Positions 1 through 44,663 of a stretch of DNA of 46,170 nucleotides are shown here, one piece after another. A program made the position numbers and the translations under genes. This DNA comes from Deltaproteobacteria bacterium. GTDB taxonomy: Bacteria; Desulfobacterota; DSM-4660; Desulfatiglandales; Desulfatiglandaceae. Under the pieces are notes generated by a model. That model saw only the letters and a program-made list of their open reading frames with translations, was not told the DNA's origin and did not search any database. The DNA is taken from the NCBI GenBank assembly GCA_019307945.1, contig JAFDIS010000018.1:1-46170 (forward strand). The letters are read 5' to 3'. How positions within the stretch are numbered: the stretch's first letter is position 1; every line of letters begins with the position of its first letter.

Positions 1-69
1 TGGGTGGCTATCCGGTTGTTCCGCCGAGCCGATAAGCAAGGTCCCGACAAGAATGAAGGTGGCCCGCAT
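1..69 (-). CDS. Possible partial exported protein (N-terminus only)
   Basis: A minus-strand reading frame starts at ATG 69-67 and runs off the left edge without a stop. It encodes about 23 residues beginning MRATFILVGTLLIGSA, which resembles the start of a signal peptide (one basic residue, then a hydrophobic stretch). No clear ribosome binding site precedes it, so the start is uncertain. It would lie downstream of the methylase gene at 302-1780 on the same strand, separated by a G-rich minisatellite. Nothing can be said about function. Confidence 0.3.
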   Translation of the reverse strand, partial: MRATFILVGTLLIGSAEQPDSHP

Positions 70-98
70 GAAATGGGGCAGCGGCCGTGATCGAGGGC

Positions 99-237
99 GT
101 TGGGTTTGTGGGGTTTGTTGGGTTGCTTGGGTTGCTTGGGTTTGTTGGGTTACTTGGGTTTGTTGGGTTTATTGGGTTCGTTGGGTTTATTGGGTTTATT
201 GGGTTCGTTGGGTTTATTGGGTTTGTTGGGTTTGTGG
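99..237 (+). repeat. 9-bp G-rich minisatellite, about 15 units
   Basis: Fifteen consecutive 9-base units of the form GTTGGGTTT, with variation mainly at positions 1 and 9 (A, C or G), run from 99 to 233 and a partial unit follows. Each unit carries one GGG run, so the plus strand has GGG at a fixed 9-base pitch and could form G-quadruplexes. Because 9 is divisible by 3, all frames stay open and translate as tryptophan/valine- or glycine/phenylalanine-rich strings. I regard these as artefacts rather than genes. Confidence 0.95.
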
Positions 238-250
238 ATCAAACATTATG

Positions 251-282
251 GAGCGGCTCCTCCTGCGGCAAGAGCACCGCTC
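251..282 (-). terminator. Possible hairpin after the rsmG-spoU gene
   Basis: On the minus strand, just past the stop at 302, GAGCG...CGCTC pairs around an inner GCTC...GAGC, giving about 9 base pairs with one internal mismatch and a purine-rich loop. The following bases contain only a short broken T run (ATGTTTG). It could be a weak terminator or a 3'-end stabiliser. Confidence 0.35.
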
Positions 283-301
283 GTTCATGAACCTTCATGC
301 A

Positions 302-1780
302 CTAGCCCTTATCACGTATCCTGCTCCGCCAAGAGTACAGAGCGATCCCGGTGGCCAGGGCGGCATTGAGGGATTCCGTACCCGGTTCCATGGGAATCCC
401 CACGAGATTTTCCCGTCGCAGGCCCTCCGGAAGCCCCGGCCCCTCGACGCCCGGCACCAGGCCGAACGTCCCGGGGAATTTCACGGTTTCGAGGTTTGTG
501 CCGCCCGGCGACAACGCGAAAAGCGGGACCTGTCTCGTGCGGAGTTTCGCCAGAGACGGGCCTCTCCGGAACGAAACTCTGAACACCGCATTGCCGGCGG
601 CCCGCAAGGACTTATGGTGAAAGGGGTGGGCCGCCTCCTTCAACAGCACGATCCGCGCCACCCCGAAGGCCGCGGCGGTCCGGATCACAGCACCCACGTT
701 GGCGGGGTCTTGAAACGGAACAAACAGGGTGCATCCTTGGGGCCACCGCCCGTCCCGCCAGGCCGGCATGGGCGGCACTTTAACGATCAACAGGGGCGAT
801 CGCGTCCCGTGGATATCCAGCCGCTCGAAGAGATCCTTGCCCAGGCGGTACACAGAGATATTGTCCGGTACCGGATCCAGCGGCGGTTCATGCTCCTCTC
901 CCAGGACCAGGCTCGCGCAGCGGTCGGGAAACGCCTCGAGCGTCTCCAGCACGGACTTTGAACCGGCCAGGAGGGCCAGGCCCTCCTTCTTGATGCCCCG
1001 CGAGCCGGCCGCCCGCAAGAAGCGCTTGTATGTGGAATTTTCGGTGCTTTCGATCTTTCTGATCAAGTTCTCCCGACCGACGTATTTCCGCTTCGGGGGT
1101 TTCCGGTCCGCCGTCCGGCGGATGGATTTCGCGGCACCCTTTTTTTCAAAGACCACGAGACGCCGCCGGTGGGGCGTGCCGGCCAACGTGTAGGGCTTAT
1201 CCTGAACGAGCCTGAAATCGTCCCCCCGGCGGGAGAGTGCTTCGGCCAGCTCTTCGTCGCAATGGGGGCCCTTCATGAACACCACCAGCCCGCCCGAAGG
1301 CAAGAACCATTCAGCCCGCCGAAGCGTCAGTTCCATCTTCTCAAGGGCCCTGGTTATGACACCCGAAACAGGCACCGTGAACCCAGGGCCTACTTTGTGA
1401 GGGAAGACGTCGATACCCTTCAGACCGAGGGTCTTGCAGGTCTCCCGGAGAAAACCGGCGCGCCTGGCCCTCCCTTCGGCCAGGATGATCTTGATGCGGG
1501 GCCTTACGATCTTGATGGGAATGCCCGGCAGGCCGGCCCCCGACCCGATATCCAGGAGAGGCGATGGAAGTTCCATCAGATTCGGGACGATGACACTGTC
1601 CACGTAATGCTTGACCACCATGTTTTCGAAGTTCCTGATCCGCGTCAGGTCCAGGGCCTCGTTCCTTTCATGGATAAGACGATGATAGCGCCACAGCAGG
1701 GAGATCTGCTCCTCCTCCAGGCGCAAACCGCTCCGCTCGAACAGACGCGCCATGGCCCGCAGGCTGGGTTTCAGTTGCAT
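302..1780 (-). CDS. rsmG: RsmG-type 16S rRNA methyltransferase fused to SpoU/TrmH-family RNA methyltransferase
   Basis: This 492-residue protein carries two SAM-dependent RNA methylases in one chain. Residues 1-215 are RsmG/GidB-like (16S rRNA G527 N7-methylation in the family), with the SAM-binding motif DIGSGAGLPGIP at 77-88. After a basic linker (about 215-245), residues 245-492 are SpoU/TrmH-like. They show all three knot motifs: FQDPANVGAVIRTAAAFG (356-373), VPGVEGPGLP (442-451) and IPMEPGTESLNAALATGIA (462-480). RsmG alone is usually near 210 residues and SpoU proteins near 260, so both domains appear full length. The ATG start at 1780 follows GAGG at a good distance. The SpoU target (a 2'-O-methylated nucleotide in rRNA or tRNA) cannot be told from sequence. 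The gene is divergent from the pseudouridine synthase at 1973, and mnmG, a common rsmG neighbour, is not present. Confidence 0.9.
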   Translation of the reverse strand: MQLKPSLRAMARLFERSGLRLEEEQISLLWRYHRLIHERNEALDLTRIRNFENMVVKHYVDSVIVPNLMELPSPLLDIGSGAGLPGIPIKIVRPRIKIILAEGRARRAGFLRETCKTLGLKGIDVFPHKVGPGFTVPVSGVITRALEKMELTLRRAEWFLPSGGLVVFMKGPHCDEELAEALSRRGDDFRLVQDKPYTLAGTPHRRRLVVFEKKGAAKSIRRTADRKPPKRKYVGRENLIRKIESTENSTYKRFLRAAGSRGIKKEGLALLAGSKSVLETLEAFPDRCASLVLGEEHEPPLDPVPDNISVYRLGKDLFERLDIHGTRSPLLIVKVPPMPAWRDGRWPQGCTLFVPFQDPANVGAVIRTAAAFGVARIVLLKEAAHPFHHKSLRAAGNAVFRVSFRRGPSLAKLRTRQVPLFALSPGGTNLETVKFPGTFGLVPGVEGPGLPEGLRRENLVGIPMEPGTESLNAALATGIALYSWRSRIRDKG

Positions 1781-36966: not shown

Positions 36967-38922
36967 ATGGCCAAGATCCTGTGGGAACCTTCCAGCGAAG
37001 CCGTAAAAAAGACAAATATGTATAAGTTCTTTGGTTTCGTAAACGAAAAATACGGTCTGAATATCTCGGATTACAACACGCTGTGGGAATGGTCGGTTGA
37101 AGACATCCCGAACTTCTGGGCTGCCGTATGGGACTTCGTCCAGATCAAGGCCTCGAAGCCTTATGACGAAGTGGTGGACGACCCGGCGAAACTTCCCGGA
37201 GCGCGCTGGTTTTCGGGGGCGGAACTAAACTTCGCCGAAAACCTTCTCAGGTACCGGGATGAACAAACGGCTCTGATCTTCAGGGGGGAGGACAGCGTCA
37301 GGCGCACAGTAACTTACAAGGAGCTTTACGACGAAGTGGCGCGCACGGCCAAGTCCCTTCGGGAGGCCGGGGTCAAATCAGGCGACCGGGTGGTGGGGTT
37401 TGTCCCCAACATGCCCGAGGCGATAATCGCCATGCTGGCGGCCACCAGTACCGGCGCCACCTGGTCTTCCTGCTCTCCCGATTTCGGGATCAAGGGCGTT
37501 CTGGACCGTTTCGGCCAAATCAAGCCGAAAGTTCTTTTCACGGCCGACGGGTACTGGTTCAAGGGCAAGCCCCTCGACTCCCTGGAGAGGATCGGCGCCA
37601 TCCTCAAAGAACTCCCCAGCATCGAAAAGGTAGTGGTCATCCCGTATACCAATGAAAGGCCCGACATCTCCGCCGTGCCCAATGCGGTGCATTATGCGGA
37701 TTTCAAATCGGCCGAAAGCGGCCTTGAAATCGACTTCGAGCAACTTCCCGCGGACCACCCCCTTTACATCATGTACTCTTCGGGCACCACGGGGCTTCCC
37801 AAGTGCATGGTCCAGAGTGCGGGAGGGGTCCTGATCAACCAGCTCAAGGAACTGGTCCTTCACACGGACCTCAAGCGGGAAGATACGATTTTCTATTTCA
37901 CCACCTGCGGATGGATGATGTGGAATTGGCTCACCTGTTCCCTGGGCGTGGGCGCCACACTGGTGCTCTACGACGGCAACCCCTTTCACCCGGACCCCTG
38001 GGCTCTCTGGAAGATGGCCGAAGACGAAGGAATCACGGTATTTGGAACCAGCGCGGGATACATTGCGGCCATGATGAACGCAGAGGTGAAACCCCGCGAA
38101 CGGTTCGCCCTCAAACCGCTCCGCGCAGTCCTTTCCACCGGCTCGCCCCTGTCCGTCGAGGGCTTTGAATACATCTACGAAACCGTGAAAAGCGACCTGC
38201 AACTTGCTTCCATTTCCGGCGGCTCGGACATCAACGGGTGTTTCGCCGCGGGCGATCCCACCTCACCGGTTTACGCGGGCGAACTCCAGTGCCGGTGTCT
38301 CGGGATGAAGGTGGAAGCCTTCGACGAGCAGGGCCGTCCCGTGCGCAACCAGCAAGGTGAGCTTGTCTGTACGGCGGCCTCCCCTTCCATGCCCATCTAT
38401 TTCTGGGACGATCCGGACGGAGCCAAGTATCATGCAGCCTATTTCGACGTCTATCCCAACGTGTGGCGTCACGGGGATTTCATCGAAATCAACGACAGGG
38501 GCGGTGTGGTCATCTACGGCCGGTCCGATGCGACTTTGAATCCCGGGGGAGTGCGCATAGGAACGGCCGAGATCTACCGTCAGGTGGAAGCCCTACCGGA
38601 GATCGCCGACAGCCTCGTGGTGGGCCAGAACTGGAAAAACGATGTGCGGGTGATCCTCTTCGTAAAGATGGAAGAGGGCCGGGAGCTAACCGACGAGTTG
38701 AAAAACAAGATCCGTGTCACCCTGCGCACAAATGCATCGCCAAGGCACGTTCCCGCCAAGATCATCGAGGTGCCTGACATTCCATATACGCTGAACATGA
38801 AAAAGGTGGAACTGGCGGTCAAGAAGGTGATCGAAGGCAAAGCGGTGCTGAACAAGGACGCCCTGAGCAATCCGGAGTCCCTTGATTACTTCGCGGACCT
38901 GAAGGAATTGCAGGAAGACTAG
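36967..38922 (+). CDS. aacS: Acetoacetyl-CoA synthetase
   Basis: This 651-residue ANL-superfamily acyl-CoA ligase adenylates acetoacetate and transfers it to CoA. The N-terminal cap begins MAKILWEPSSEAVKKTNMYK, the P-loop is YSSGTTGLPK (270-279), and TTCGWMMWNWL and SGGSDINGCF are characteristic of the acetoacetate branch. The catalytic lysine region reads DIPYTLNMKKVELAVKK, with Lys612 the likely adenylation lysine and Met611 where acetyl-CoA synthetases have Gly. Length is normal for the family. AGAGGGGGTGGACGC precedes the ATG. The hypothetical gene at 38937 follows after 14 bases. Confidence 0.9.
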   Translation: MAKILWEPSSEAVKKTNMYKFFGFVNEKYGLNISDYNTLWEWSVEDIPNFWAAVWDFVQIKASKPYDEVVDDPAKLPGARWFSGAELNFAENLLRYRDEQTALIFRGEDSVRRTVTYKELYDEVARTAKSLREAGVKSGDRVVGFVPNMPEAIIAMLAATSTGATWSSCSPDFGIKGVLDRFGQIKPKVLFTADGYWFKGKPLDSLERIGAILKELPSIEKVVVIPYTNERPDISAVPNAVHYADFKSAESGLEIDFEQLPADHPLYIMYSSGTTGLPKCMVQSAGGVLINQLKELVLHTDLKREDTIFYFTTCGWMMWNWLTCSLGVGATLVLYDGNPFHPDPWALWKMAEDEGITVFGTSAGYIAAMMNAEVKPRERFALKPLRAVLSTGSPLSVEGFEYIYETVKSDLQLASISGGSDINGCFAAGDPTSPVYAGELQCRCLGMKVEAFDEQGRPVRNQQGELVCTAASPSMPIYFWDDPDGAKYHAAYFDVYPNVWRHGDFIEINDRGGVVIYGRSDATLNPGGVRIGTAEIYRQVEALPEIADSLVVGQNWKNDVRVILFVKMEEGRELTDELKNKIRVTLRTNASPRHVPAKIIEVPDIPYTLNMKKVELAVKKVIEGKAVLNKDALSNPESLDYFADLKELQED

Positions 38923-38936
38923 AGGGGGGGGCGGGC

Positions 38937-39932
38937 ATGAGCGGAGAAAAGGACACCAGCGCCCTGCCCGTCACCCTGTTCCCCCACTCTTACGCGGTCC
39001 CCGAGACCTTCCGGTGCCTCCGAGATATGTTCGGGCGGGTTAGGCTCTGCCTTCCCTGGTATATGGAGCCACCCCCCGGCGCGCATGAGGAGGGAGTGGA
39101 GATCCTGAGGCCTCCCGAGATTCTCAGGCCCGAGGAAGATTTCAACGCCCTGCTCAAGGAATACCTCGGATGGATGGAAGAGCATGCGGCCCGGGGAGAC
39201 AATTCCTTCGTGCACGCAGCGCGCGAACTGCTCGAGGCTGAGGAGACCACCTGGGGCATTGGAAGGACGCTTCGACGAATGGGGGGAGGCCGAGACGATG
39301 AGAGTGAGTCGGATCAGGCGTTTCGGTGGCACATGATACTACACCTTTCAGCCGAAGTCGAAAAGAACCGTGCCGACGCTGAACAAATCCTTCGTAAACT
39401 CAAGCAAGAGTCATCTCCCCTGAAGGAAGCCCTGGGCGAAATCGAAGAACCCGTGGGTGTCCTAGACGATCTTCCGCCGGGCGAGGGAAGCGGGGACGAA
39501 CGACGCGTTTCCAGGACACTGAAGGCCTGGACGGGGCTTTTCGGGCGAGAGCTGGATCGGGAAACCATACTCATCACCTTTGATCGCGAGGTGATGGACC
39601 ACGTGGCGGGCCTTTTGGAGGAGCACGGGCCGGCGGGATCTCATGAGATCTTCGAGGTCGGAGTGCCGTCTTTTGCAGGTGACGATGCCCGCAAAAAAGC
39701 CCTGGAACCCCTTCGAACAATCCTGCGTCCCGCGGGGCCAAAGGGCGAGCATGCGAGTAGCGCCTCGGAAAGATCCACGGAAGGGAACCACCGTGTGTCC
39801 GAAGGCTCTCCCGACGAAGGAGCCCCCCTCCGGGTCCTTCCCCTGCCGCAGGACCCCGCGTCGCTCCCACGCCCGCTCCAGGAGGAGATCCCCCCAGCAG
39901 GAGCGCTCCTATACTTCTCCTGCACCTCGTAA
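38937..39932 (+). CDS. Hypothetical protein, 331 residues, after aacS
   Basis: I do not recognise a family. The N-terminal half (10-160) is probably helical, with LFPHSYAVPETFRCLRDMF, WYMEPPP and FRWHMILHLSAEVEKNRADA. The middle has RTLKAWTGLFGRELDRETIL, and VGVPSFAG suggests an ordered domain. The last 90 residues are low-complexity, rich in Pro, Ser and Glu, and less likely to be folded. No signal peptide or membrane segment is seen. A GGGGGGGCGGGC tract precedes the ATG 14 bases after aacS, so it is probably co-transcribed. It may be a conserved partner of the next small gene. Confidence 0.65.
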   Translation: MSGEKDTSALPVTLFPHSYAVPETFRCLRDMFGRVRLCLPWYMEPPPGAHEEGVEILRPPEILRPEEDFNALLKEYLGWMEEHAARGDNSFVHAARELLEAEETTWGIGRTLRRMGGGRDDESESDQAFRWHMILHLSAEVEKNRADAEQILRKLKQESSPLKEALGEIEEPVGVLDDLPPGEGSGDERRVSRTLKAWTGLFGRELDRETILITFDREVMDHVAGLLEEHGPAGSHEIFEVGVPSFAGDDARKKALEPLRTILRPAGPKGEHASSASERSTEGNHRVSEGSPDEGAPLRVLPLPQDPASLPRPLQEEIPPAGALLYFSCTS

Positions 39933-39998
39933 GACCAGAAACGCCGTGACGTCGGAAAACGCGGAGCCTGCACCCCGGGCCACGGCCCCGCGCACGCC

Positions 39999-40367
39999 AT
40001 GGAAAAGACAATGAACGACCAAGACAAATCCCAGGGCCGCGTCGCGGGAGAGCAAGGCGCACATTTTCCCGGCCGGGAGGAATGGACACGCCGATTCATC
40101 GCCTGTGAACCCCGCCTGAGCGAGGCGGTTGAACTCTACCGAGAAGCGGGCTTCGAAGTGCGGTTGGAACCCCTGCCCCCGGAACCGGAGTGTGTGGAAT
40201 GCAACGGCCTGGAAGGCCGGGCTCCTGAGTGCCGCATCTGTTACCAGGGGATGGAAGATCGCTACAAGGTCATCTACACCAGGCACGTTAAGAAAGACGA
40301 TGGCCGGAAGCACCCCTCATCCGGCCCCGGAACCCCGTCTCCTGCTCAATCGCGGAGGCGTCGTTAG
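39999..40367 (+). CDS. Hypothetical small cysteine-motif protein
   Basis: This protein of up to 122 residues has two CxxC pairs in ECVECNGLEGRAPECRICYQ, spaced as in a small zinc ribbon or a metal-binding knuckle, followed by GMEDRYKVIYTR. The C-terminus is a basic tail ending RRRR. ATG 40011, four codons in, has GGAAAAG upstream and may be the true start. It follows the 331-residue protein after 66 bases. The two appear to form a conserved pair of unknown role. Confidence 0.65.
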   Translation: MEKTMNDQDKSQGRVAGEQGAHFPGREEWTRRFIACEPRLSEAVELYREAGFEVRLEPLPPEPECVECNGLEGRAPECRICYQGMEDRYKVIYTRHVKKDDGRKHPSSGPGTPSPAQSRRRR

Positions 40368-40675
40368 AGCTCGAGCCGCGATCCAGACGTTTTAGAGTAG
40401 CAACTTCCGCCCGCCCCCCAATCCGACAACTCTGTGGGGCCACCTGGTTTCCATCCATAAACGGCTCTTTTTGTCCTCGCCTGTGGGCTCGGACTCCCCA
40501 CTCTCCGAGTGGGTCCCCAGTTTGTCCTCGCCTGTGGGCTCGGACTCCCCATCCTCCGGATGGGTCCCCGGTTTGTCCTCGCCTGTGGGCTCGGACTCCC
40601 CATCCTCCGGATGGGTCCCCGGTTTGTCCTCGCCCGTGGGCATTGGTTTGTGGACAGCCACTTGCCTATTAGTTT
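40368..40675. other. Intergenic region at the edge of the AT-rich island
   Basis: This contains the 51-bp tandem repeat (40471-40646) and otherwise no supported gene. It marks the change from GC-rich sequence to the visibly AT-richer dockerin genes. No clear terminator was found for either flanking gene. Confidence 0.6.
40471..40646. repeat. 51-bp tandem repeat, 3.4 copies, with covarying hairpin arms
   Basis: Three full 51-base units start at 40471, 40522 and 40573, with a fourth partial at 40624. Each begins TTGTCCTCGCCTGTGGGCTC. Each contains a stem-loop: unit 1 has CCCACTC-TCC-GAGTGGG, units 2 and 3 have CCCATCC-TCC-GGATGGG. Both arms change together, so pairing is kept while sequence differs. 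Because 51 is divisible by 3 all frames are open; on the minus strand it would read as a 17-residue repeat (PTGEDKPGTHPEDGESE), which I do not consider a proven gene. Confidence 0.93.
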
Positions 40676-42406
40676 TTAGTTTCCAAACTCACCAGCAAAG
40701 TACATCAGATCATCCAGATCCACGTCGCAATCGTGGTCCAGATTTGCAAGACAAGTATCCTGAATCTCGCTGACAAACCAGGTACACGTTCTCCCTTCCA
40801 GGGTAAAGGTCCACCTAAAACCAGGACCCAGCGGAAAATAGTCACCTGAATTACTCGCTATATTTCCATATGAGTCAAGCCCACCCACATATTTAGTTTC
40901 TGTTGTTCCATCTGCGGCTTTTTCGGTTATTATGAGTTTTACTGGTCCAACACCCGGCGCAAACCACCTTTCATATTTTACGGGGTAAGGCTGCCCGGAG
41001 GTATAGCCACCTGGATAAGAAAGATTCTCTACCACCTTGACGCAGTTCTCAAAGGATCCTGCCGGCACATTTACTGTTTCGCTGCGGCTGACAACCCGGG
41101 CAATGGAGTTAACTGTGTAGCCGGCCGACTCGCCACTGGAAGACCATTCATCCCCGGGTTCAGGAGGAAAAAATCTAAGAGGCGGAGAATGGGTGGCAAA
41201 TGGCAATATTACATCAACGCCAGAATAGGCCCCTCCCCCATCTCCTGCTACGCTAAATCCTTCATACCACAGTTCACCATTGCCATCCTCACACAATTGT
41301 TTTCCGAAGGTAATACTCCCATTGGCATTCCCCACAACCTCTATTTTATATGTGGCATTGCAATTGGATGACCCGAAGTTAGACACAAAATAACTTACAA
41401 AATGTGCCAGATCAGCCCCATCGACGTCCCTGTCCTGGTCAACATCAGAGTTATATACAGTCACACAGGATGGTGGGTTGTATCCTATACCTGCAAGATT
41501 GTAGTATTGCCTTGCTTTTTCCCAATATAAGGTGGCTGTAGGGCAGTCGCCTTTGAAATTCGCTGCATCTCCAGCTTGACGGAAGCAATCTCCTGTTCTT
41601 TGATAGTCTGGTGCATCAATAAAATTCTCAGCCGCCACAACATAATAGCTTATCGCGGCATCCCAATTTTTAGATGCAGAAGCAGCGTTGCCGGCCCAAG
41701 CATAAGCGTCTCCTGCTTTCCAATAATCAGACACGAGGAGATAGTTATCGCCTGATGTTTCGTAATTCGTCATGCTTTCATCGTACTTGCCTGTGGCATA
41801 TGCCGCCTGACCTGCATGGTAATGCGCCTCGGCCTTTCTTTGAGAGTCTGACGTCATATCAGCATACGTTACCTCTAATTGGTAATACTCATATGCTTGG
41901 TCATAGCTCCCCAGCTCATAGGCCACGTTACCTGCCCAGCCATAGGAGTCAGAAGCCCGCCAGTAATCAGGCACTTCTGAATAGTATTCACCTGCAGTTG
42001 AATATTCCGTTTTACTCTCTTCGTATCTCCCTGTGGCATAAGCTGCTTGTCCAAGATGATAATATCCTATCGCTTTTCTTTCAAAATCCGTGGTTAGATT
42101 CGCATAATTTACCTCTTGCTGATAGTAAAGGTATGCCTGTTCGTAGTTTCCTTGTTCAAAGGCCACATTGCCTGCCCGGCCATAGGAGTCAGAAGCCCGC
42201 CAGTAATCAGGAGGGTTAAGGCTTGAGTAGCATTCTGCCGCCTCCACATAACTTTTAGAAGCGTACAGGTCATCACACTCGTCACTGGAGGGACCATCCG
42301 CCCACAAAATAGCGTTGCCGACAGTCATGAATGAACTAAACAAACCAAAGAGGGTCCACAGCCAAAAAGCCCGTATTTTTCCTTTAATAAAGGTTGTAAT
42401 TAGCAT
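40676..42406 (-). CDS. Exported TPR protein with dockerin-like calcium-binding repeats
   Basis: This 576-residue protein has a signal segment at 10-36 (FWLWTLFGLFSSFMTVGNAI). TPR-like helical repeats fill about 66-305, including an 80-residue tandem duplication. A first dockerin-type calcium loop follows (DVDQDRDVDGADLAHF, 321-336), then an all-beta region (350-550) and a second loop at the very end (NLDHDCDVDLDDLMYFAGEF). The calcium loops resemble single F-hands of dockerin type I, which in other bacteria bind cohesins or act as C-terminal sorting/anchoring signals. The role here is unknown. GGAGGGAATAAA precedes the ATG, 18 bases after the upstream dockerin gene. The sequence is AT-richer than flanking genes. 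Confidence 0.75.
   Translation of the reverse strand: MLITTFIKGKIRAFWLWTLFGLFSSFMTVGNAILWADGPSSDECDDLYASKSYVEAAECYSSLNPPDYWRASDSYGRAGNVAFEQGNYEQAYLYYQQEVNYANLTTDFERKAIGYYHLGQAAYATGRYEESKTEYSTAGEYYSEVPDYWRASDSYGWAGNVAYELGSYDQAYEYYQLEVTYADMTSDSQRKAEAHYHAGQAAYATGKYDESMTNYETSGDNYLLVSDYWKAGDAYAWAGNAASASKNWDAAISYYVVAAENFIDAPDYQRTGDCFRQAGDAANFKGDCPTATLYWEKARQYYNLAGIGYNPPSCVTVYNSDVDQDRDVDGADLAHFVSYFVSNFGSSNCNATYKIEVVGNANGSITFGKQLCEDGNGELWYEGFSVAGDGGGAYSGVDVILPFATHSPPLRFFPPEPGDEWSSSGESAGYTVNSIARVVSRSETVNVPAGSFENCVKVVENLSYPGGYTSGQPYPVKYERWFAPGVGPVKLIITEKAADGTTETKYVGGLDSYGNIASNSGDYFPLGPGFRWTFTLEGRTCTWFVSEIQDTCLANLDHDCDVDLDDLMYFAGEFGN
41729..42208 (-). repeat. 240-bp tandem duplication inside the TPR-dockerin gene
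   Basis: Residues 67-146 and 147-226 of the encoded protein are strongly similar (both begin DYWRASDSYG, both contain GQAAYATG), matching two 240-base DNA units at 42208-41969 and 41968-41729. Two shorter, more diverged units follow (DYWKAGDAYAWAGN and DYQRTGDCFRQAGD). This is a recent internal duplication of a pair of TPR units. Confidence 0.85.
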
Positions 42407-42424
42407 TTTATTCCCTCCAATCTC

Positions 42425-43804
42425 TTATTGCCCAAACTCATTTCCGAAAATCTCAAGGTCCTGTTCATCAATCACCCCGTCTTGATGAAGATCGCAGGCG
42501 GGGTTAAACCCGGCATCTCCTGTGCTGCTGCCGAAGCCCGCTGCAAAAGCGGTCAAATCCTTCCCATCACAATCCTTATCCCCATCGAAGTCTCCTGCCA
42601 ATTGTGGCCCTATTACTCCTTGATAACGTCCAAAGTAAACCGAGCAGATCCGGACGAAAACCAGACACGGTTCTCCGTCCTTGTTCACGGCAAGAGCGCA
42701 ATGATAGAGTGTTTCATCAACCCCTTCGTCCACCGTCTCAACGTCCCACCCGGAACCAAGATCTTTAGCGAAACGGATGGCACTATACACGTGGTCGGCG
42801 CCGGTGCCTGGATCACTAAAAACCCTTTCAAGTGTATAAACCACGTAAGCATCGTTCCATTTGCCAAACGCAGGACAGGGGTGGTATATCCCGCTGTCGC
42901 TCGAATGGTCAATAGGGGAAATATTCCATGAGTGACCATCAAAACGAGCGATTTCAACAGTGTCGTCGTGCGTGCCCCCAAACCCACGGTACACAACATA
43001 GCTCAAGGCAGGAAGCCCATTTTGATTTAGCGCTATCGAGGGGTTACGGAGGGAGAAATCTTCCCCAGACTGCCTCACGCTTTGAAATATCCACGGGTCA
43101 CCACCAGCCTGGCCTGATTTCGCCAGGATCAGTTCCGTTCCAAAATGGCCGTCGTAATAAGAACTCAGGTAGCCCACAAGAATATGTCCCTCTCGATCTA
43201 TTGCCAGTGTAGGTGCTCCTATGATGTCAGACGTCAGGGAAACATGAGACCAAGTTCCGTCCTTGCGAATTGCTACCCGGAGTTCTTTAGACAAGGGATC
43301 CCCGGTCACGTAAGCAATGACGGGGTTTCCCTGGGAGGTGTACCCAAGGGACGTTGTGGTCTCTGCTCCAGACCAGTCTGGGACGACAGCCTCTTTTGTG
43401 AAATTAAGTCCCGTCCCTTCAGCCAGGCAAATTTCTCCACTTAATTGATCATCAGCATTCTCTAAGCAATAGGAGAGGCCCCAGATCCCGGTTGGGCTTA
43501 AGGCAAGGGAGGGTGCGGGCATACCGGCGTAAGCCATTGAGGAGGGAAACGTATCAATGTTAACAAGTTCCCATGCCGATTCTCCTCTGCGGGCCAATCG
43601 TAGTATCCCAGTGGAGCCACTGAATGACCTTTCGGGGTAAGCGATGATGGGTTTGCCGTCCTGATCAAATATCAGCGGGCCACCTCCACAGACATTCATT
43701 TCCTGGACCAGCTCCGCCTCCCAGTTGGGGGAAAGGTCGGCCCACGACCAACATGGCCCCCCTAAGGCTAGGCCAATACCCAAAGCAAACAGAGCCAATT
43801 TCAT
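42425..43804 (-). CDS. Exported beta-rich repeat protein with C-terminal dockerin-like domain
   Basis: This 459-residue protein has a signal peptide MKLALFALGIGLALGGPCWSWA. The body (30-400) is built from repeating short beta-strand blocks around PSLALSPTGIWGLSY, GNPVIAYVTGD, PTLAIDREGHILVGYLS, PSIALNQNGLPALSYVVY and CALAVNKDGEPCLVFV. These resemble blades of a beta-propeller. The last 58 residues hold two calcium loops (GDFDGDKDCDGKDLTAF and CDLHQDGVIDEQDLEIF), a complete dockerin-type pair. I start it at ATG 43804, with AAGGA upstream, because the signal peptide begins there. The open frame reaches back to 44050 through a GAF-like fragment. Confidence 0.78.
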   Translation of the reverse strand: MKLALFALGIGLALGGPCWSWADLSPNWEAELVQEMNVCGGGPLIFDQDGKPIIAYPERSFSGSTGILRLARRGESAWELVNIDTFPSSMAYAGMPAPSLALSPTGIWGLSYCLENADDQLSGEICLAEGTGLNFTKEAVVPDWSGAETTTSLGYTSQGNPVIAYVTGDPLSKELRVAIRKDGTWSHVSLTSDIIGAPTLAIDREGHILVGYLSSYYDGHFGTELILAKSGQAGGDPWIFQSVRQSGEDFSLRNPSIALNQNGLPALSYVVYRGFGGTHDDTVEIARFDGHSWNISPIDHSSDSGIYHPCPAFGKWNDAYVVYTLERVFSDPGTGADHVYSAIRFAKDLGSGWDVETVDEGVDETLYHCALAVNKDGEPCLVFVRICSVYFGRYQGVIGPQLAGDFDGDKDCDGKDLTAFAAGFGSSTGDAGFNPACDLHQDGVIDEQDLEIFGNEFGQ

Positions 43805-44050
43805 GCTAACGATCCTTTGAATGGGGATAACAAATATTGCCATAACCATCTCGACATTCAGCGCTAATTCAGGAGGAAGACCATATCCTGAATAAGTGCA
43901 AACAACGTTTTTTTGTTGGGTCAGACGATTGTAAAGAGCGCAAGCGCCTCCAATCAGTTCAGCGGCATGCTGGACAATTATATGGATGTTTTTTCCCGGG
44001 TCAGGGGTGAGTCTGTAAAGAAGTGAAGATAACCCTGCAATGGTCTTCAT
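43805..44050 (-). pseudogene. GAF-domain fragment fused in frame upstream of the dockerin gene
   Basis: Up to 82 codons from ATG 44050 read in frame into the dockerin gene. They contain IIVQHAAELIGGACALYNRL and VVCTYSGYGLPPELAL, which look like the start of a GAF domain from sensor histidine kinases. The rest of GAF and any kinase are missing, and the segment ends in an unrelated linker. It is best explained as the leftover 5' end of a sensor kinase gene after a deletion or insertion. An alternative is that the whole 541-residue chain is one protein, but an internal signal peptide at residue 83 argues against this. Confidence 0.6.
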
Positions 44051-44663
44051 TGGCAGCCCTCTACTGGCGATGATTCAAAATTCATGGTCCCGTAGGAACG
44101 ATAATGCAACTAAGGGCCTAAACCAAATGATTACGAAATACCTAGCACTTCAGAGATAAAATGTCAAACAGGCCAAGCAAAGCCTCAAACAAACCGTTAG
44201 TGCGAAGCTCTGTTGTTCCTCCCCCGGTTTTGCAGGATTCAAGAGTGCCGGATCAAGCCTGTTATTGGAGGATAATTTCTGATTTCAATCGGTTATAACA
44301 TGTGCAGCGACCGTACAGCCCTGTTCTGTTCCTCTGATTCATCACCCCCAACAATGTACCTTTCCCCTATAAATTGCCCTTCCAGGTTAGGTGGTGGAAC
44401 CCTCCGGCATAGGCGCCGTCTCTTTCCAGAGCCCTGGGCATCTGAAAATGCCTACCGCGCGCTAGCGATCTGAGAGGAAGGTCAAGAGAAACCGTCCGAT
44501 GGGTTGAGCGCCTCCGAACACCGTTTTTGGCCGTTTTTAAACGGGTCCTCCAGAGGAATCATTTTCGGTAACAGACCAACGTTGTTTTAATGTTATTTCA
44601 AATTGTTAGCATATTATTTTCGAATATTTCACGCGGACAAGAACCATAATTTGTAAATATACC
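44051..44663. other. Long AT-rich non-coding stretch
   Basis: No convincing gene is visible in these 613 bases on either strand; all frames are short or lack a ribosome site. A tight inverted repeat CCGTTT-TT-AAACGG occurs at 44531-44544. The stretch separates the GAF fragment from the carboxyltransferase promoter and may be eroded sequence. Confidence 0.5.

Follow-up and report, generated by a model that had tools for sequence, protein, structure and literature searches.

A 51-bp tandem repeat next to dockerin-like genes, in which both arms of a hairpin differ between units while the hairpin still pairs, raises the question of whether the pairing itself is conserved and to what kind of element such a repeat belongs. 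The repeat lies in the window, the whole stretch of 46,170 nucleotides analysed here, on a contig of a 185-contig, 4.16-Mb draft genome. Tandem Repeats Finder places the array at 40470-40641, with a period of 51 bp, 3.4 copies, 95% matches and a score of 302, which confirms the repeat described in the original prediction. The arms quoted there are also exact, CCCACTC/GAGTGGG in unit 1 and CCCATCC/GGATGGG in units 2 and 3, and the loop is TCC in all three full units. The outer sequence, described as constant, is nearly so: unit 1 ends in CCCAGTTT, units 2 and 3 end in CCCGGTTT. The features of the locus are the following.

40447..40464, plus strand: left terminal inverted repeat of a MITE-like element, GTTTCCATCCATAAACGG, with one mismatch against the family end
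40470..40520, minus strand (the folding strand): bi-hairpin unit 1, H2 variant CCCACTC-GGA-GAGTGGG; covariance-model match 40470-40523 (-), E 2.8e-16
40473..40494, minus strand: hairpin H1 of unit 1, with the minus-strand sequence GTCC-GA-GCC-CACA-GGC-GA-GGAC
40497..40513, minus strand: hairpin H2 of unit 1, 7 bp with a 3-nt loop
40521..40571, minus strand: bi-hairpin unit 2, H2 variant CCCATCC-GGA-GGATGGG; model E 4.7e-17
40524-40545 and 40575-40596, minus strand: hairpin H1 of units 2 and 3, same as H1 of unit 1
40548-40564 and 40599-40615, minus strand: hairpin H2 of units 2 and 3, counterparts of H2 of unit 1
40572..40622, minus strand: bi-hairpin unit 3, identical to unit 2; model E 4.7e-17
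40623..40642, minus strand: fourth unit, truncated, part of hairpin H1 only
40647..40661, no strand: tentative decayed right terminal repeat TTTGTGGACAGCCAC, proposed by inspection against intact copies ending in ATTTGTGGATGGGCAC

The placement next to dockerin genes was correct only in part. The neighbouring gene (40676-42406, minus strand) encodes a TPR protein with a C-terminus, NLDHDCDVDLDDLMYF, that is EF-hand/dockerin-like in look and has no match to any Pfam dockerin model, while the gene at 42425-44050 (minus strand) shows a Dockerin_1 match below threshold (E 0.02). Near the contig start, the window holds another tandem repeat, at 99-235 (9 bp, 15 copies, consensus GTTGGGTTT), within or across the open reading frames 53-961 (+) and 302-1780 (-).

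Each unit folds into two hairpins, H1 and H2, on either strand. H2 consists of 7 bp and a 3-nt loop, while H1 has the form GTCC..GGAC around a variable inner stem and usually measures 19 or 22 nt overall. The whole window array folds better than its shuffles (z -2.7), with a z of -3.4 for the element as DNA. In the units of this genome 99.1% of the H2 cells pair on the minus strand, compared with a mean of 94.6% and a maximum of 96.1% in 1000 trials in which the arms were re-dealt among these units. H2 pairs in 97% of cells in the 43-unit alignment, pair 15-23 being C-G in 22 units and U-A in 19. Among 68 matches at other loci and in other genomes, 97% of the stem cells pair, 10 of 13 pairs have changed on both sides (3.3 in shuffles), and the covariation score is 0.221 against 0.117 in shuffles and at most 0.038 in slid versions. 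These figures lean somewhat toward pairing, as the structure was used to fit or derive the alignments and the copies are related. A striking single case is HyVt-17, where an H2 of CCCAACC/GGTTGGG stands with an A-T-rich H1; another is locus L070, where a perfect GTCCGTAC/GTACGGAC stem takes the place of H1. The pairing is conserved by real covariation. The original suggestion that pairing itself is kept thus holds across genomes, as changes in the arms do not break pairing as often as they keep it and re-dealt arms never equal the observed value.

Read on the minus strand, the most frequent variant of H2 is CCCGCCC/GGGTGGG. It contains a G.U pair that becomes A.C on the plus strand, and plus-strand H2 pairing in the units of this genome drops to 94.2%. 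We therefore take the minus strand to be the one whose folding is kept. The G.U pair also argues against pure self-correction of a palindrome, which would yield perfect palindromes.

The repeat is not local to the window and is dispersed between the genes of this Desulfobacterota genome, for the most part within small mobile elements. A 201-bp query gave 36 BLAST matches in the genome; sequence searches and the 26 places retrieved yielded 66 well-formed units, which form arrays of 1-5 units at 26 loci, far more than chance would produce. A covariance model trained on 43 different units found 67. Other arrays are spaced at 57, 59, 60 or 62 bp, and the units are flanked by AAACYGGGGA / GA and AAA. 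The search of relatives proposed with the original prediction, run with the covariance model, detected the unit in 23 of 85 genomes from the order, in a very patchy distribution: at least 69 units were found in genome G055 and none in two congeners, while G037 and G074 have 55 and 60 units. In the rest of the phylum the unit is rare (8 of 297 sampled genomes, 5 of these 8 from the same order). When 84,980 species were scanned with a DNA pattern, 59 stretches were returned, all in Deltaproteobacteria/Desulfobacterota MAGs, every named match being a Desulfobacterota MAG. Plasmid and phage collections gave no unit match, and an origin from either was rejected on that ground.

The dispersed copies also bear on how the arms of the window array came to differ. 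The ACTC/GAGT variant of H2 is also present at three other loci of the genome (L011, L022 and L029). Variants of the two hairpins combine freely: a single H1 is found with four H2 variants, and neighbouring units share H1 and differ in H2 in 7 cases and share H2 and differ in H1 in 4. Evidently, whole hairpins are exchanged between copies. The arms of the window array do differ yet pair, as the original prediction of a compensatory change within the array had it; since the same variants exist elsewhere in the genome, this change is best read as an exchange of pre-existing hairpin variants and not as proof of local compensation. Generally, covariation within one tandem array can arise by swapping ready-made hairpins between dispersed copies and should be judged with this in mind.

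Many arrays of this genome begin directly after GTTTCCATCCATAAATGG (21 places), and several full copies end in ATTTGTGGATGGGCAC. Ends of the type GTKYCCATCCATAAA stand inverted around the units; in the window the left end is present and the right end is decayed, with no clear target duplication at the ends of this copy. Among all loci examined, 23 elements have such ends, and 13 of them show a perfect 6-bp target duplication, where 0.78 would be expected by random pairing; none has a perfect duplication of 4, 5, 7 or 8 bp. The unit is present in 7 of these 13 elements, including L114 and L121 of the window's own genome. It is likewise bounded by a second family of terminal inverted repeats, GTAACAGCTCAATAA (in G055), in which 6 of 24 elements have perfect 8-bp duplications; L063, a member with such a duplication, carries two units. 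Further contexts are GGAGGCTGTCGGAAAA in G077, GACGGCTTCGTAAAAAGTC in L070, AGACCTTTGAAAAACG in L043 and a TTTGGTG palindrome in G215, and some units in relatives stand alone, with no detectable inverted repeats around them. As the unit occurs both in several such contexts and alone, we regard it as a module common to several MITE families.

The elements are 130-435 bp long with stops in nearly all frames. They combine the properties of MITEs, namely terminal inverted repeats, target duplications (in sister copies), short length, many copies and no transposase gene. The genes flanking several of the copies with terminal inverted repeats are housekeeping or host genes only, and no autonomous partner transposase or insertion sequence was found at these flanks or in the copies of genome G018. 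In G018, contigs stop within copies that have these termini, a break of the kind expected from a repeated insertion sequence, and the interior is absent from the assembly. Two observations on related elements may be added. G037 contains 226 matches to GTGCCCATCCATAAA, which represent a large expansion of MITEs that measure 130-200 bp and have 6-bp duplications (e.g. L192-L196), many of them without the unit, and at L068 and L060 a GTAACAGCTCAATAA-type MITE, or part of one, is nested inside a GTTTCC-type element.

The number of units changes in exact steps. One MITE at the same exact position contains no unit (L201, L202), one (L152) or two (L086), and the added units are exactly TTTGTCC..CCGG before TTTG. 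A MITE family of G037 likewise occurs with and without the unit. In all, 0-5 units are found in the same kind of context, which corresponds to the variable internal array between end modules of BOX-type elements. The kdsC-lptC loci of G023 and G059, whose sequences beyond the array are ~99% identical, differ in length by precisely one unit of 48 bp. These two genomes are filed in different genera, yet their ~99% identity at kdsC-lptC suggests contamination or transfer. At the 3' end of kdsC (L036, L225, L226) the stop codon appears to be provided or changed by the inserted unit, so that the C-terminus of the protein varies with the insertion. Two congeners of G055 lack the element that it has at another site; their spacer is filled there by other repeats and is no clean empty site. 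In the orthologous spacer of G056 and G020 (L217, L218) short degenerate tandem repeats are seen (GTGTGAAGT.. and GGGAGTAGG..), of a different kind in each species. Of 15 sites that look independent, most have AAA as the outer border on either side. These states are compatible with insertion of the unit and equally with its exact removal through slippage between TTTG repeats.

Taken together, we assign the feature, with a probability of roughly 0.8, to the core of a BOX-like modular MITE, in which GTKYCCATCCATAAA terminal inverted repeats bound a variable number of tandem two-hairpin units. The 6-bp duplications in sister copies, the unbiased orientation to genes (see below), the copy changes by one unit, the occurrence in several families of terminal inverted repeats and the kept pairing all support this assignment; the lack of a partner transposase among the sequences searched, the decayed right end in the window and the units that stand alone count against it. 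The unit itself is most likely a structural module of such MITEs. The elements would be non-autonomous and moved in trans by an insertion-sequence transposase that recognises their terminal inverted repeats. The unit may be kept because a stage in the life of the element, possibly a single-stranded DNA intermediate, a transcript or the binding of a protein, requires the minus strand of the unit to be folded, either as single-stranded DNA or as RNA. Slippage or unequal exchange, involving the units and the short TTTG repeats at their borders, would make the arrays grow and shrink, and arm variants would spread through exchange between dispersed copies.

Some of these observations would also suit a unit that moves on its own, i.e. 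a REP-like mobile element of ~48 bp. It would target A/T triplets (CAAA/TTTG), in many cases within MITEs, and form arrays as each copy recreates the target. The occurrence of the same unit in at least five unrelated contexts of terminal inverted repeats and alone between genes, the exact states of zero, one and two units bounded by TTTG in one MITE and the AAA..AAA boundaries point in this direction, and hairpin loops of the GNA type would suit recognition as single-stranded DNA. However, the RAYT/IS200-type enzymes that mobilise REPs are absent from the genome save for one fragment, the unit-rich G037 has only one short Y1 protein, and the surroundings of 12 Y1 genes sampled in relatives contain no unit. 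Slippage between TTTG repeats that removes a unit precisely would also produce the 0/1 pattern. The REP-like element is a tentative possibility. Also tentative is a form in which the enzyme is not a RAYT and the unit is an independent module of ~48 bp, folding as a single strand, with precise insertion at AAA/TTTG, often in unrelated MITEs, and tandem growth by regeneration of the target. The pairing could also be kept by mutation and not by selection, through quasipalindrome repair and gene conversion in a neutral satellite. Homogenising exchange clearly operates, as the H1 and H2 variants assort freely and are swapped as blocks; template correction, however, gives perfect Watson-Crick palindromes, while the commonest H2 in many genomes keeps G.T/G.U at pair 14-24 (A.C on the other strand), and we consider this origin unlikely.

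A transcribed structured RNA, or a 3' mRNA element such as a terminator or stabiliser of the neighbouring genes, would agree with the stable fold of the array, the covariation and the preference for the minus strand. It is nevertheless improbable, as the units show no bias of orientation to genes in heuristic gene calls (antisense in 21 cases, sense in 17, convergent in 8 and divergent in 7), no promoter is conspicuous, the search for terminators gave nothing convincing (one 5-bp stem, 0.4 expected), and Rfam gave no match at E up to 1 over 38000-44500. For these reasons we do not read the array as a regulator of the dockerin-like genes. The proposal that it marks the 3' end of a dockerin operon fails in the same way, the unit being dispersed and its gene orientation unbiased; the dockerin link is incidental. 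The array might finally encode a repeat, as units of 48 and 51 bp are multiples of three, long open reading frames cross it and the window element is open in 5 of 6 frames. In complete elements at other places, stops interrupt almost every frame, other arrays have the different spacings given above, and no start is conserved; the coding repeat is thus very improbable and was rejected.

Other known repeat classes were rejected as well: a CRISPR array, as the units abut with no spacers; an integron attC site, as inspection of the unit sequences did not reveal the core boxes RYYYAAC / GTTRRRY; and a RAYT/REP system, as the distribution and loci of Y1 transposases do not fit. The GTAG or CGTC tag of REP/RAYT systems at the hairpin foot was not found in the unit flanks. 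Many relatives (G001-G040) have RAYT-like Y1 proteins of ~330 aa, of which there is none in the window's genome, and two sampled RAYT-like Y1 genes of relatives are flanked by other palindromes, e.g. TTACCCAAA..TTTGGGTAA.

The closest parallels are modular mobile repeats. BOX elements of Streptococcus pneumoniae and S. suis are built as boxA-boxB(n)-boxC, with different end modules around the same boxB in S. suis (PMC3049150). As described there, they share with the elements studied here terminal modules bearing inverted repeats, a self-folding internal module in an array of variable length, target duplications and an intergenic location (PMC3049150). Unlike in BOX, the internal module here consists of two covarying hairpins, is common to families with 6- and 8-bp target duplications and also occurs alone. 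The likeness to BOX is one of plan and working, and membership is not claimed. BrickBuilt of Porphyromonas gingivalis, a minisatellite inside a MITE with a 23-nt repeat found in P. gingivalis and P. gulae, is similar in that a tandem repeat with predicted stem-loops lies in a transposase-less element bounded by inverted repeats and varies in copy number at orthologous loci (PMC4596501); it differs in having target duplications of varying length and, in the description drawn on here, no covariation at the level of pairing (PMC4596501). Chunjie of Geobacter uraniireducens, an intergenic MITE of ~178-235 bp in tens of copies, is likewise deltaproteobacterial and has terminal inverted repeats and direct repeats, a likeness by description, while a tandem bi-hairpin core does not figure in the review's account of it (PMC10969869). 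REP/BIME sequences are also short, palindromic and intergenic, single or clustered (PMC3733652), but here there is no GTAG or CGTC tag, no RAYT in the genome or beside the units, and contexts are bounded by terminal inverted repeats. Compared with BOX, BrickBuilt and Chunjie as described in these sources, what is new is a covarying bi-hairpin unit common to families with different duplication lengths; since the descriptions contain no such unit, we call it a new relative of the known modular mobile repeats.

The finding describes a short structured DNA module with compensatory changes over many genera that travels in several unrelated MITE families of Desulfobacterota. With it, one can test if selection acts on the hairpin structure of bacterial MITEs, and which strand and which enzyme are important.
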